DNA from: a virus
IMG/VR virus record: IMGVR_UViG_3300047309_000214
Coordinates: 1-25,793 of that record
Direction: 5' to 3' (one strand)
Length of the DNA stretch: 25,793 nt
The first letter of the stretch is position 1, and the number at the start of each line of letters is the position of its first letter. The notes beneath the pieces are model-generated. The model was not told the origin of the DNA. It ran no database searches and saw only the letters and a list, made by a program, of their open reading frames with translations. This document shows positions 17,550-23,583 of this stretch, piece by piece. A program made the translations under genes and the position numbers.

Positions 17550-17755
17550 TAGACAACCTCCTCTTCAGATAGTTTTGAAAGATTTGTGTTAACAAAATCA
17601 AACACATTATTATAAACATCTACTACTGTGTTGATAGATGTGTCAACCATTTTCTCGTCAAAAATAGTGTTAATTTCTGTTAAACAATCTTTGTACCCAT
17701 CATTATAAGCCTCTTGCCCTACGTGTTCAATACCTTCTGTGATTAAATTAATCAT
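17549..17755 (-). CDS. 68-aa hypothetical acidic protein
   Basis: The start overlaps the stop of the 170-aa gene by eight bases and has AAGGAG upstream. Its own stop overlaps the SSB start (TAATG). Acidic and helical (EGIEHVGQEAYNDGYKDCLT, TVVDVYNNVFDFVNTNLSKL). Coupling with SSB suggests a replication-related role, otherwise unknown. Confidence 0.6.
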   Translation of the reverse strand: MINLITEGIEHVGQEAYNDGYKDCLTEINTIFDEKMVDTSINTVVDVYNNVFDFVNTNLSKLSEEEVV

Positions 17756-18260
17756 TCAGATTCTCCTTTTTATATAAAATATTTAAATCATTAATCAAAA
17801 CCCCATCTATTAAACGATAAGAATGAGTTTTGTTTAATCTATTTTTTATCCTTTTGTGTGATGTGTTGCCAATATACACAAAAGTTTCAATACTTTCAGA
17901 TTGTGTGTATTTAAGACGTGTAAAGTCAAAAATACTATTGAAATGTATTGGTGTTATTTTTTGGTATACTCTATGATGTAAATCTAGTTTATGATTTGTA
18001 CGCAACATAGAAAGTGAGCATGCGTAATGAGCGTCCAAGTTGCGTATGTAAAAGTCCGCATCGGACAACTCAAATAACGCACCATAAATATATTTATTCA
18101 TGTAAGTACGTGATTTATTTTGCAATGCAAAAACGTTATTGCTATGGAAGTGCCTAAACATTTTACCTTCCATTTTTGCATAACAAATAAACTGCAATGG
18201 TATTCCAATATTTTTATTAAATTCTGGATTAATCATTTTATCATAAATAAATATTTTCAT
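17748..18260 (-). CDS. 170-aa protein, possible gamma-glutamylcyclotransferase-like fold
   Basis: By eye the sequence follows the GGCT/AIG2 layout: an initial strand FIYDKMIN where the family has hFVYGtL, a central YIYGALFELSDADFYIRNLD matching the family's vYGelYel...LD, then a strand segment SIETFVYIG. The family's catalytic Glu after LDxxE is not present (the sequence is LDAHYACS), so ordinary cyclotransferase activity is doubtful. The C-terminal part is basic (SHKRIKNRLNKTHSYRLI). The ribosome-binding site is weak (AAGAAAG). A binding or defence-interfering role is possible but not supported directly. Confidence 0.4.
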   Translation of the reverse strand: MKIFIYDKMINPEFNKNIGIPLQFICYAKMEGKMFRHFHSNNVFALQNKSRTYMNKYIYGALFELSDADFYIRNLDAHYACSLSMLRTNHKLDLHHRVYQKITPIHFNSIFDFTRLKYTQSESIETFVYIGNTSHKRIKNRLNKTHSYRLIDGVLINDLNILYKKENLND

Positions 18261-19892: not shown

Positions 19893-20558
19893 TCAACTCC
19901 ATTTAGTATTATAGAATTGGTTATATTTCAAATCAACCAAAATTTCATTATCTAAATCTTCTCCATTGATTTTATTGATGAGTTGCTTGGCACAAAGCGA
20001 TGCCACAATTGCAGCGGTTGTAACAACAGTCATAGAAGTACCACATGCAGAAACTTCTGCATTGTCGTCACTATAAAAGTTTTGCTCGTACAAACCAATA
20101 TGCTTCATATCAAGAGGATTAACTGTGTATATGCGTCCCATTTCTAAGCCCATACGTGGCTCGATAAGTAACTTGATTTGGGAACGTAACTTAATAGCGT
20201 TATTCCAAATACGTTTGCGTTCTGACATAGAATCTACCATAAGAAATACATAACCAGATAGACGTTGATTTTCAAATTTTTGATTGTAAATTGTAGGTTG
20301 AATACCAGTAGAACCATTTAACATATCTTCTAACGCTTGTACTTTTGGCTCACCCACTTGCCATTCACCATAAATTTGATTAGGAATATTATGCTCTTCA
20401 ACAGTATCAAAATCCCAAATACGAATATCGCTAAACCCAAGCTTAGCAAGAAACATAGCAAGCCAGCTGCCAGTTGCACCCGCACCAATGATTGTAACGG
20501 GGGCATCAATGTCATCTCGATTAAATAATTCAGATTGTCTACTAAAGTCATAAATCAT
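19893..20558 (-). CDS. E1-like ThiF/UBA adenylating enzyme
   Basis: This 221-aa Rossmann enzyme would activate the C-terminus of a ubiquitin-like protein by adenylation. VTIIGAGATGSWLAMFLAKL (residues 21-40) is the nucleotide-binding loop, and RIWDFDTVEEHNIPNQIY (46-63) gives the conserved acidic residues and the N-x-x-Q of E1/ThiF/MoeB proteins. GEPKV (69-73, K72) and MVDSMSERK (107-115, D109) follow. C172 in VSACGTSM is placed like the catalytic Cys. No adenylation-domain zinc CxxC pairs are seen, unlike MoeB. It is shorter than CBASS Cap2 and has no fused E2. The start overlaps the JAMM gene stop (ATGA). It resembles ThiF members of PRTRC-type cassettes. Confidence 0.88.
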   Translation of the reverse strand: MIYDFSRQSELFNRDDIDAPVTIIGAGATGSWLAMFLAKLGFSDIRIWDFDTVEEHNIPNQIYGEWQVGEPKVQALEDMLNGSTGIQPTIYNQKFENQRLSGYVFLMVDSMSERKRIWNNAIKLRSQIKLLIEPRMGLEMGRIYTVNPLDMKHIGLYEQNFYSDDNAEVSACGTSMTVVTTAAIVASLCAKQLINKINGEDLDNEILVDLKYNQFYNTKWS

Positions 20559-21559
20559 TTTAAAAACTCCTTGTCTAGTAATATTTCTTCGTAAAAATCA
20601 CGAATCTCAACTTCTTCAAATCGAATATCGTAATACGTGTTTATTTCTTTTTTGAATTCTTCATACGATTTGCATTTAGCAAGGTCTTTAAGTGCAGCAT
20701 CGTCAAAATAGTCATAAATAGATTGTGTGTAGTATTTAGAAGCAGTTTGAATGCCATCTGCATCTTCAAACACATATCCGTTATACTCGTAATACTCTTG
20801 TTCAGTAGTAAAATTCGAGCTGACTGGAGTTTTTTTTTCAGTGGGTGCATTGTACCAATCATTACCACTGTAATCATAAACTTTTGCTGGTGATTTGTAA
20901 TTGTAATTGTAGTTATACGTTGCATAAGATTTTTTGGAAACTTTGTCAGCAATTTCTTGCTTAACTTGTGGCGTAATTTCTGCTAAACGTGTTTGGTCAA
21001 ATGAATCTAATTGTGCATATAGATCGTTAATTTGTTGCATAATATTTTGTTCTTGTTGTGTATATAATACTTGCCAATCCATGTCTTTGAATACAACACC
21101 AGTTTCATAATTATACAAATCAAGTTTGAGTGAACCTTTTTTGTTGGTGATGATTCGAATGAACCAGTCGTGACCAACGTTGCTAAACACGTTCATTTGC
21201 AAATCATCTTGACCAGAAGCGAATGTTTCCATGTTAACGTGGCTATGACCCCAAACTTTAATGTTGTTCCAAACGTCCATGCCACCGTCAACTTGAAGTA
21301 ATTCTTCAGCAAACTCTTGCAAACCCTCAGGGTTAATTTCCGTGGTTGTGGCGTGAACTTCTTGCTTGAATAGGAACATTTCTTCTACAACGTAAGTTGT
21401 TTTGTCAGTTTTGACAGCAGTACCAAGCCAACCAATTTCGTCAGAACAATTGTCAGTATACGCTTTCATTTGTGTAAGTGCTTTTTGTGTAACGAATACT
21501 TCAGGTGTTAACACTTCAATAAAAGAAGTTGTCATTGCTTTTGAATTTGCATTAAACAT
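20555..21559 (-). CDS. JAMM/MPN+ isopeptidase with Tyr-rich extension
   Basis: The 334-aa protein has an N-terminal JAB/MPN+ metalloprotease domain: E41 (SDEIGWLG), then WGHSHVNMETFASGQDD with H105, H107, S115 and D118. This is the full JAMM zinc motif E...H-x-H-x7-S-x2-D of deubiquitinase-type enzymes. It could process the phage ubiquitin-like protein or remove it from targets. After residue ~165 comes a coiled-coil stretch, a tyrosine-rich low-complexity linker (ATYNYNYNYKSPAKVYDY, 213-230) and an acidic helical C-terminus. I recognise none of these as part of the JAB fold. GGAGGGTG precedes the ATG. The gene sits two bases after the E2-RING gene and overlaps the E1 gene. Confidence 0.9.
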   Translation of the reverse strand: MFNANSKAMTTSFIEVLTPEVFVTQKALTQMKAYTDNCSDEIGWLGTAVKTDKTTYVVEEMFLFKQEVHATTTEINPEGLQEFAEELLQVDGGMDVWNNIKVWGHSHVNMETFASGQDDLQMNVFSNVGHDWFIRIITNKKGSLKLDLYNYETGVVFKDMDWQVLYTQQEQNIMQQINDLYAQLDSFDQTRLAEITPQVKQEIADKVSKKSYATYNYNYNYKSPAKVYDYSGNDWYNAPTEKKTPVSSNFTTEQEYYEYNGYVFEDADGIQTASKYYTQSIYDYFDDAALKDLAKCKSYEEFKKEINTYYDIRFEEVEIRDFYEEILLDKEFLK

Positions 21560-21561
21560 TA

Positions 21562-22587
21562 TTATTCACCCTCCTCGTTCCATTGTTCACAGAATGCGTC
21601 CCATCTATCATTGTGAATATAAACTTCTGCATCACCATGCCATGAGTAATAATTTTCACGACAGTGGCTACAAACTAATGTGTCATCATCAGAACCTACC
21701 CAGTTACAGCAATGCTCACAAATGTCACCACCACATTCTTCGCAAGTACGGTACTCATCTTCACTGTGAATTACGTGGTCACATGATGGGCAATCTTCTA
21801 ATGGTTGTTCAGACTCTTCAACAATTTCACCTGTTTCAGGATTGACTTGATTGCGGAAGCGTACAGAGCGTCCAGCAATATCGTTAGTGTTAACAGATTC
21901 TACATAGTCAATAAGTAAGCATGCCAAAACCATGTATTCACGATTGCCACACAACTCAGCAACACTAGACTCAATACTGCCAAGACAAGGGCGACCATTG
22001 TTGCCGTCAACGTGTGGATGTGGGTCTTGACTTGTCCAATAACCTTGTTTGAGGTTATCTGATGTGATGCGGATGTTAGCTTCATCTAAGTAAACAGTGA
22101 TTAAATAACGTGCACCTTCGTAATATTTATCTTCATTTGCATCATAGAGATACAAAAATTTAGTCAAAAATGTAAGTTTGTTTTCGCCATAAAGAACTTC
22201 TTCTACTTTTTCTAGTGATTTGATTTTAACAATCTCACTAGCAATTTTAGTAGCAGTTGCATCTTTAGGAAGTTTGAGTGCTTCGAGGCTATCTTCAAGT
22301 GTCTTAACACGCTCAATAGCACGTGAAAGGTAACCACGATAGTTGTCAACCTCGTTACGTTCTTGACGCAAACGACGTTCCATATTCATAACATTGTTGT
22401 TGAATTGGTTTTCAACGTTTTCACGAATCTTGCTTAAAAAGTTTTTGTTGTACTGTGTTTCATTCATTTTTTCTACCAAAGAAATTGGCGTCATTTGTAT
22501 TACGTTTAAATTAAGATTATTGCTTAACTTGCTGATGAGTGATGCATTGTTTACAAAACTTTTGTCACTTTCACATGTATTGCACAT
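21562..22587 (-). CDS. E2-like ubiquitin-conjugating protein fused to RING/FYVE-like zinc domain
   Basis: This 341-aa protein combines three parts. Residues ~50-105 are a coiled coil. Residues ~135-235 contain an E2-like (UBC) core: strands RYLITVYLDEANIRI, then DPHPHVDGNNGRPCLG, where H190-P191-H192 corresponds to the E2 HPN motif and C201 to the catalytic Cys, as in PRTRC protein-B type E2s. Residues 266-309 hold C266-x2-C269-x12-C282-x2-C285-x4-C290-x2-C293-x12-C306-x2-C309, a binuclear cross-brace pattern of the RING/FYVE treble-clef class. It would receive the activated modifier from E1 and pass it to targets, with the zinc domain as built-in E3 or target binder. GAGGTG precedes the ATG. 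A lone CxxC (residues 2-5) is at the N-terminus. Confidence 0.82.
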   Translation of the reverse strand: MCNTCESDKSFVNNASLISKLSNNLNLNVIQMTPISLVEKMNETQYNKNFLSKIRENVENQFNNNVMNMERRLRQERNEVDNYRGYLSRAIERVKTLEDSLEALKLPKDATATKIASEIVKIKSLEKVEEVLYGENKLTFLTKFLYLYDANEDKYYEGARYLITVYLDEANIRITSDNLKQGYWTSQDPHPHVDGNNGRPCLGSIESSVAELCGNREYMVLACLLIDYVESVNTNDIAGRSVRFRNQVNPETGEIVEESEQPLEDCPSCDHVIHSEDEYRTCEECGGDICEHCCNWVGSDDDTLVCSHCRENYYSWHGDAEVYIHNDRWDAFCEQWNEEGE

Positions 22588-22622
22588 ACTAACACCTCAT
22601 TTGTTTTAGTTTAAGTTGGTAT

Positions 22623-22656
22623 AAAAAAACACGGCTAACAAATATGTCAACCGTGT
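22623..22656 (-). terminator. Intrinsic terminator between Ubl and E2 genes
   Basis: Minus strand ACACGGTTGAC pairs with GTTAGCCGTGT (11 bp including two G-U pairs) around a 6-base loop, followed by seven T. It separates the small modifier gene from the three enzyme genes. TTGACA within its left arm could double as a -35 element for E2, but no convincing -10 follows at normal spacing. Confidence 0.8.
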
Positions 22657-22669
22657 ATGAATAAGGAGA

Positions 22670-22699
22670 GTTGGCAAAGCCATGACTAGCAGTGCCAAC
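22670..22699 (-). other. Second hairpin downstream of the Ubl gene
   Basis: GTTGGCA/TGCCAAC, a perfect 7-bp stem with a 16-base loop, just after the Ubl stop. It has no T tract, so it is more likely an RNA-stabilising or processing hairpin than a terminator. Confidence 0.5.
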
Positions 22700-22707
22700 C
22701 CAGTTGA

Positions 22708-22932
22708 TTAGTTACCTTTTACTTGACGAGCAAGGATAACTACTTTTGTATCTTCAGTTACAACAGTGGAATCAAGTGCCGAAACAGACACTGAATCAAC
22801 TTTAACGTCATAACCAGAAGCGTCAAGACTAGCCAAATCAAGAAGTGCGGAAATTGTTGTACCTACTTCTACTGCAAACTCCTCAATACGACCTGGCAAT
22901 TGACCTACTTTAACTACTACTGTGTTTCCCAT
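22708..22932 (-). CDS. Ubiquitin-like beta-grasp protein (ThiS/MoaD-like size)
   Basis: The 74-aa protein shows the beta-grasp pattern: strand 1 NTVVVKVGQLPG, strand 2 EEFAVEVG, helix TTISALLDLASLDASG, then short strands (DVKVDSVSV, TVVTEDTKVVILARQ). The T-I-x-x-L-L helix and the D-T-K-V-V-I segment before the tail are hallmarks of small ubiquitin-like modifiers. It ends RQVKGN, with one Gly at position 73 and a terminal Asn, not the usual GG. Together with adjacent E2, JAMM and E1 genes it is very probably the modifier of this cassette. AAGGAG precedes the ATG by seven bases. The gene is followed by a terminator, so it can be expressed above the enzymes. Confidence 0.78.
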   Translation of the reverse strand: MGNTVVVKVGQLPGRIEEFAVEVGTTISALLDLASLDASGYDVKVDSVSVSALDSTVVTEDTKVVILARQVKGN

Positions 22933-23511: not shown

Positions 23512-23540
23512 AAAAAAAAGTTGCTCCGATCGGGAACAAC
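23512..23540 (-). terminator. Second of two tandem terminators
   Basis: Minus strand GTTGTTCC, loop CGATC, GGAGCAAC (8-bp stem with one G-U), followed by eight T. The loop contains one of the few GATC sites of the window. Confidence 0.85.
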
Positions 23541-23549
23541 ATTAAACAG

Positions 23550-23576
23550 AAAAAAAGGGCAGGATTGCTCCCGCCC
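23550..23576 (-). terminator. First of two tandem terminators after the 378-aa gene
   Basis: Minus strand GGGCGGG, loop AGCAAT, CCTGCCC (7 bp with one G-U), then seven T. It begins eight bases after the stop codon. The tandem arrangement implies a strongly expressed upstream unit that must be insulated from the conjugation cassette. Confidence 0.88.
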
Positions 23577-23583
23577 CGGTTTT

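Follow-up and report, generated by a model that had tools for sequence, protein, structure and literature searches.

Four adjacent phage genes predicted to encode a complete ubiquitin-like conjugation pathway

Do phages run a ubiquitin-like conjugation pathway of their own? To our knowledge none is known to do so, and in bacteria such conjugation has so far been known mainly as an anti-phage weapon or from plasmid genes of unknown role. The question is raised by the viral record IMGVR_UViG_3300047309_000214, of which we analysed the whole 25.8-kb stretch (hereafter the window; 25,793 nucleotides, G+C 34.7%). Four adjacent minus-strand open reading frames at 19893-22932, where a preliminary description of this DNA had placed them, encode a ubiquitin-like modifier (Ubl), an E2-like conjugating enzyme, a JAMM peptidase and an E1-like activating enzyme (Table 1). 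Here, we found that this cassette is widespread in phages rather than unique to the window. Based on sequences and structure models, we consider it probable (about 80%) that the four genes form one phage-encoded pathway, which would mature the Ubl, transfer it from E1 through E2 to a target and remove it again by means of the JAMM, with a role in the takeover of the host.

Table 1. Positions of the cassette genes and associated elements in the window.
Feature	Coordinates	Strand	Basis
E1/ThiF-type activating enzyme, 221 aa, single adenylation domain, catalytic C172	19893..20558	-	Pfam ThiF, UBA5 profile match, C172 conservation
JAMM/JAB metallopeptidase, 334 aa (E41, H105, H107, S115, D118), low-complexity C-terminal extension	20555..21559	-	ligand conservation, RPN11 and BRCC36 profile matches, Prok-JAB
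E2-like conjugating enzyme, 341 aa: coiled coil (about 46-123), UBC core (about 128-245), Cys-rich tail	21562..22587	-	AlphaFold2, PDB fold matches, homologues in 78 loci
E2 zinc-finger-like C-terminal tail: C266, C269, C282, C285, C290, C293, C306, C309	21661..21792	-	sequence; sub-threshold Pfam matches
E2 active site H192...C201 (DPHPHVDGNNGRPCLG)	21985..22014	-	H192 and C201 conservation; UBE2W alignment
Intrinsic terminator, 12-bp stem and run of T, between Ubl gene and enzyme genes	22629..22656	-	region z = -7.1
Second stable hairpin just after Ubl stop codon, before terminator	22668..22701	-	RNA fold of 22600-22710
Ubl modifier, 74 aa, beta-grasp, C-terminus ...RQVKGN (Gly73, then one Asn)	22708..22932	-	open reading frame with strong ribosome-binding site, AlphaFold2, Foldseek, profiles

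Are the parts of a general Ubl conjugation pathway present? We found a beta-grasp modifier, an E1 with an ATP-binding loop and a catalytic Cys, a UBC-fold E2 with an active-site Cys (top fold E-value 0.014) and a JAMM/MPN+ protein with the complete ligand set (E, HxH, S, D). The window E1 carries GAGATG at residues 25-30 and matches Pfam ThiF at 1e-21, while a profile of its family finds UBA5 as the closest PDB entry (1e-16) and also reaches the E1 domains of Cap2 and BubCD. Its C172 is a Cys in 80/80 proteins (the window and 79/79 other loci). The five JAMM residues E41, H105, H107, S115 and D118 are identical in 82/82 proteins (the window and 81/81 others), and the JAMM family profile matches RPN11 (7e-4) and BRCC36 in the PDB; Prok-JAB is touched by 10 of 33 JAMM relatives, the window JAMM not being recognised singly. 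The AlphaFold2 model of the Ubl (pLDDT 90.6) shows a ubiquitin/SUMO-like fold, for which Foldseek returned ubiquitin, SUMO, ISG15 and others with a probability of 1.00. Its family profile matches SAMP2 in the PDB (2.2e-5), and family members match ThiS, Ub-Mut7C and SAMP2 in Pfam. Thus, the preliminary description of a 74-aa beta-grasp protein, a JAMM with all metal ligands and an E1-like enzyme was borne out; all residues that it named in the four leftward genes are present, and their conservation is far beyond chance.

The identity of the E2 rests on fold, motif and conservation taken together. The core of its AlphaFold2 model has a pLDDT above 90, and ubiquitin-conjugating enzymes take all of the top seven places among its PDB fold matches; among viral structures, the fold matches are all uncharacterised proteins. 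The motif residues H190-P-H192...P-C201-L-G are present. As a full-length profile gave coiled-coil noise against the PDB, a core-only profile was used instead, whose sole sensible match (E = 1) was UBE2W, including its isoform entry, with an alignment that spans the HPHVYSNGHICL active site. Searches of the window E2 and Ubl against Pfam, NCBIfam, PHROGs and PADLOC returned nothing useful. Of the 78 E2 relatives besides the window, 77 retain H192 and 77 retain C201, the sole exception being a second, Cys-less copy beside an intact E2. This copy (locus L026, 6593-7954; QAPHVELSGYPVAGM) is possibly a UEV-like pseudo-E2.

The preliminary description had called this protein an E2-RING. The UBC-like core upholds the first half of that name; the second half was not established, since the Cys-rich tail is modelled at low confidence and its Pfam matches, namely Prok-RING_1 (E 0.89), FYVE_2 and zf-RING_4, are all sub-threshold. 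Its eight Cys do follow a cross-brace order (266/269, 282/285, 290/293, 306/309). Among the relatives, the tail has only 4 Cys in L008-L011 and is absent in L012. Elsewhere (L014, 99-1703; L013, 1-447) we observed a long E2 tail with about fifteen CxxC motifs, a multi-zinc-finger extension.

The invariance of the E2 also bears on a different use of the same proteins. The Ubls match ThiS, SAMP2 and TtuB profiles and the E1 is ThiF/MoeB/UBA5-like, as would be expected of a sulfur-carrier system of the ThiS/MoaD/TtuB type, in which the Ubl, thiocarboxylated by the E1, would serve base or tRNA modification, with the JAMM trimming the carrier. We consider such a system very improbable, because almost every locus also encodes an E2, whose active-site Cys is invariant, and neither a sulfurtransferase nor a rhodanese turned up among the neighbouring genes that were scanned.

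Do the four genes travel together? Single-protein scans for close relatives found none, whereas two-sequence or family alignments did find relatives. A two-sequence JAMM alignment used as query revealed relatives encoded on 156 viral contigs; 80 of these were fetched and, with the window and two GenBank phages, gave 83 loci, in which partner genes were sought with profiles built in this analysis. An adjacent E1 was present in all but two loci, in both of which the JAMM lies close to the contig end, and profiles matched an E2 in 78 and a Ubl in 77. All four genes occur in 73/83 loci, most exceptions being truncated contigs. A second scan, started from the E1 to lessen query bias, found 126 contigs with relatives and, among 79 newly fetched loci, all four genes in 69; the two scans share many contigs, so that the counts are not additive. 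The genes are arranged in three common orders and several rarer ones, including U-E2-J-E1, E2-J-E1-U and U-E1-J-E2. Furthermore, any two of the four proteins have correlated distance matrices (r 0.69-0.82), and in most comparisons of close relatives nonsynonymous variation (pN) is far below synonymous variation (pS) for all four genes, which indicates purifying selection. That all four act in one pathway had initially been deduced from adjacency and coupling; co-occurrence from two queries, in several gene orders and with correlated distances, now supports it. The only point in favour of four unrelated genes that are adjacent by chance, or of a decaying remnant, is that the JAMM, E2 and Ubl each score low when compared with curated families. 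This explanation is contradicted by the co-occurrence, the invariant active sites and the purifying selection, and we assign it a negligible probability.

The carriers are diverse. The sizes of cassette-bearing records extend from less than 40 kb to more than 200 kb, and a terminase (phrog_2) was found in 21/40 source records, among them all six that are closest to the window. In the E1 tree, the window groups with L008, L011 and L012 (support 100/98), separate from a crAss-like group, itself supported, and from a branch (100/100) in which a reverse transcriptase accompanies the cassette and the Ubls end in KxNNA-like tails. In this KxNNA-type branch a reverse transcriptase gene (RVT_1, YADD) directly follows the E1 in 23 of about 26 loci (e.g. 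L051 7959-9086, L061 9603-10754, L065 6474-7580 and L002 6885-8222), and in none of the KGN-type loci. In L067 (1191-2126), a gene resembling DHH-type phosphoesterases, as judged by eye from motifs, is inserted between the E2 and the JAMM. A scan of 84,980 bacterial and archaeal genomes gave seven matches with a narrow JAMM pattern that only 12/80 viral JAMMs carry, so that rarity in bacteria is indicated, not measured. The seven are metagenome or scaffold contigs, again with matches to all four genes, and may be phage.

How would such a pathway operate? Of 84 Ubl C-termini, only one is a bare Gly, while 44 end in GN plus 0-3 residues, 6 in GA and 25 in the KxNNA/KxxGG type; five loci encode tandem arrays of two or three Ubls. 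Because nearly all Ubls extend beyond the Gly and some are arrayed in tandem, their maturation calls for a peptidase, a role in keeping with the invariant JAMM. The window Ubl, with its KGN end in place of a bare Gly, is thus probably matured by the JAMM. In agreement with this assignment, the Ubl of a Xanthomonas jumbo phage ends in GG, and its E2 (HPHM...CLG) and E1 are present, while no JAMM was recognised within the 12.6-kb stretch examined. Xanthomonas phage PhiXhv-12 (L004, 2784-7536) encodes a Ubl with a ready GG, a giant E2 with a Cys-rich tail, and an E1, and no JAMM was recognised in the vicinity. The tandem arrays are polyubiquitin-like open reading frames (L015 2264-2896, L017 9441-9872, L033 1347-1775, L038 9454-9867 and L044 9845-10291), each Ubl unit of which ends in KGN or RGA.

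Folds, active sites, co-inheritance and terminator were observed directly, whereas the order of reactions and the cleavage site, like the timing and the target discussed below, are inferred. The proposed course is as follows. The Ubl would be made as a precursor with Gly73 capped by a single Asn, and the JAMM would remove this cap and, in relatives, also split tandem Ubls. The single-domain E1 would then adenylate the exposed C-terminus and take up the Ubl on C172, from which it would be passed to C201 of the E2 and then to an amine on the target. The choice of target is likely made by the coiled coil and the zinc-finger-like tail of the E2, and the JAMM would also be able to remove the tag. 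In the window, the three enzyme genes are tightly packed, with 2 nt between E2 and JAMM and an overlap of 4 nt between JAMM and E1; a gap of 120 nt separates them from the Ubl gene. Terminators (free energy <= -10) occur in 13/29 Ubl-first loci (the window and 12 relatives; the loci are partly related and not independent), compared with 0.1 expected in shuffles. We read the strong one that follows the Ubl gene in the window as leaky, so that more modifier than enzyme would be made. On the minus strand at 23520-23577 of the window, upstream of the Ubl region, we observed two more terminator-like sites in a row.

Is the cassette a member of a known system? On the features tested, membership in PRTRC, Bil and CBASS was rejected; PRTRC and Bil are the nearest in their parts list. 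Operon type 6d of Iyer 2006, which we read as PRTRC, shares with the phage cassette separate genes for a Ubl, an E2-like protein, a JAMM and a single-domain ThiF-type E1, as well as a mobile-element setting. Indeed, a search with the profile of the phage E1s picks up the PRTRC ThiF protein (8e-19), and the NCBIfam model PRTRC_ThiF matches at 9.5e-7. However, only ThiF matches, the window E1 scoring 28 bits against a PRTRC_ThiF cut-off of 145; the phage E2 and Ubl profiles miss the proteins of the PRTRC locus examined, and no ParB or other PRTRC genes were recognised in the window. Type 6d E2s lack an upstream His and have a conserved His after the Cys (Iyer 2006, PMC1779556), whereas the phage E2 has the conserved upstream H192 (HPH...C). 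Bil (BilABCD) combines the same four activities, i.e. Ubl, E2, E1 and a JAMM deubiquitinase, and its precursor Ubl is cleaved by the JAMM (PMC11354881). BilB, however, has the motif C-E-H-H (PMC11354881), of which both histidines are found in 0/77 phage E2s. The phage E1, a single domain of 221 aa, also differs from BilD, an E1 that comprises an inactive and an active adenylation domain as well as a distinct Cys domain (PMC11354881). CBASS type II Cap2/Cap3 and Bub are linked to the cassette by the E1 profile matches described above, but their E1 is fused to an E2 (Cap2) or another domain (BubCD), whereas the phage genes are separate. No CD-NTase was recognised among the scanned neighbours of the relatives or the partly scanned neighbours in the window.

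Phage-borne likenesses exist as well. In Crassvirales and Flavobacterium Fpv phages, genes for a Ubl-like protein, a His/Cys E2-like protein, a JAMM and a ThiF protein adjoin one another close to a primase and a uracil-DNA glycosylase; the four are annotated as hypothetical, metalloprotease or thiamine biosynthesis proteins. These are very divergent from the window cassette: the JAMM is related at an hhalign E-value of 1.4e-7, the E2 and Ubl are weakly related, and the E1s form their separate group. In L003, L005, L006, L007 and L097 (crAss-like and Flavobacterium phages), a Ubl-like protein (KSG), an HSH...C E2-like protein, a JAMM and a ThiF gene stand in a row. The lambda-type tail assembly Ubl (TAPI) and JAMM (TAPK) are also phage-borne; however, they occur without E1 or E2 and in a structural-gene context (Iyer 2006, PMC1779556). 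A search of the open-access literature, outside which most subscription papers and preprints lie, found no description of such a complete set in phages.

When would the pathway act, and on what? Genes for SSB, a DnaB-like helicase, a primase and a DnaE-type polymerase lie on the same strand as the cassette, confirming its position beside replisome genes; the polymerase is closest to those of Geobacillus and Bacillus phages (34-36% identity). A replication-gene neighbourhood is also found in crAss-like and Xanthomonas phages. Because the cassette lies with same-strand replication genes, the pathway is most likely active while the phage replicates and takes over its host, with host or phage proteins that handle nucleic acids as targets. 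The same neighbours could point to the phage's own proteins, e.g. of the replisome or virion, being modified as a regulated switch of assembly or timing, which the JAMM would permit to be reversed; the Ubl and JAMM in the tail assembly genes of lambda-like phages (Iyer 2006, PMC1779556) would fit such a role. We regard this as rather unlikely, as no phage substrate site is recognisable from sequence and the cassette is common to phages that differ widely in genome size and in gene order.

Its occurrence in such different phages has also been considered as a mark of defence carried by phages, as defence genes often are. The same chemistry would then exclude superinfecting phages by Bil-like tagging of their virion proteins instead of serving takeover, and the closest studied bacterial four-gene sets (Bil, PMC11354881; CBASS Cap2/Cap3) are indeed anti-phage. 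Against this, the cassette sits among replication genes in unrelated phages and not in an obvious defence locus, PADLOC matched no defence system apart from generic E1 matches, and few matches were obtained in the restrictive scan of bacterial and archaeal genomes; we hold a defence role to be unlikely.

A conjugation pathway that acts in host takeover remains our preferred reading, and some points weigh against it. The E2 fold match is modest, with partial TM-scores and a best E-value of 0.014, in part because of the long coiled coil. Individually, the window JAMM, E2 and Ubl score below the Pfam cut-offs. The Ubl tail in the reverse-transcriptase branch often has Asn, not Gly, at the expected site, which makes the cleavage position and the activated residue uncertain, and the early timing and the target derive from gene position only. 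Overall, the preliminary interpretation is supported and withstood those of its own refutation tests that can be computed (Ubl fold, E2 fold and co-occurrence in relatives), with covalent conjugation predicted from sequence and structure models.

If this reading is correct, phages too use ubiquitin-like conjugation chemistry, with a complete, selected and widespread set. It would offer a tractable four-protein system for studying viral substrates and the early evolution of the E1-E2-Ubl-JAMM machinery, and many phage 'thiamine biosynthesis' genes, including those of crAss-like phages, would need re-annotation. More broadly, we see an even chance that tailed phages harbour a large undescribed class of Ubl conjugation systems that tag proteins in infection, characterised by E2s of the HPH type, Ubls with an Asn or Ala cap following the Gly, and polyubiquitin-like precursors, with one monophyletic branch coupled to a reverse transcriptase and some Ubls maybe activated via Asn.

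One further gene has no convincing match in Pfam or PHROG: a protein of ~170 aa is encoded downstream of the E1 in the window (17748-18260), and proteins judged similar by eye occupy the corresponding place in L008 (5214-5735) and L013 (2722-3237).

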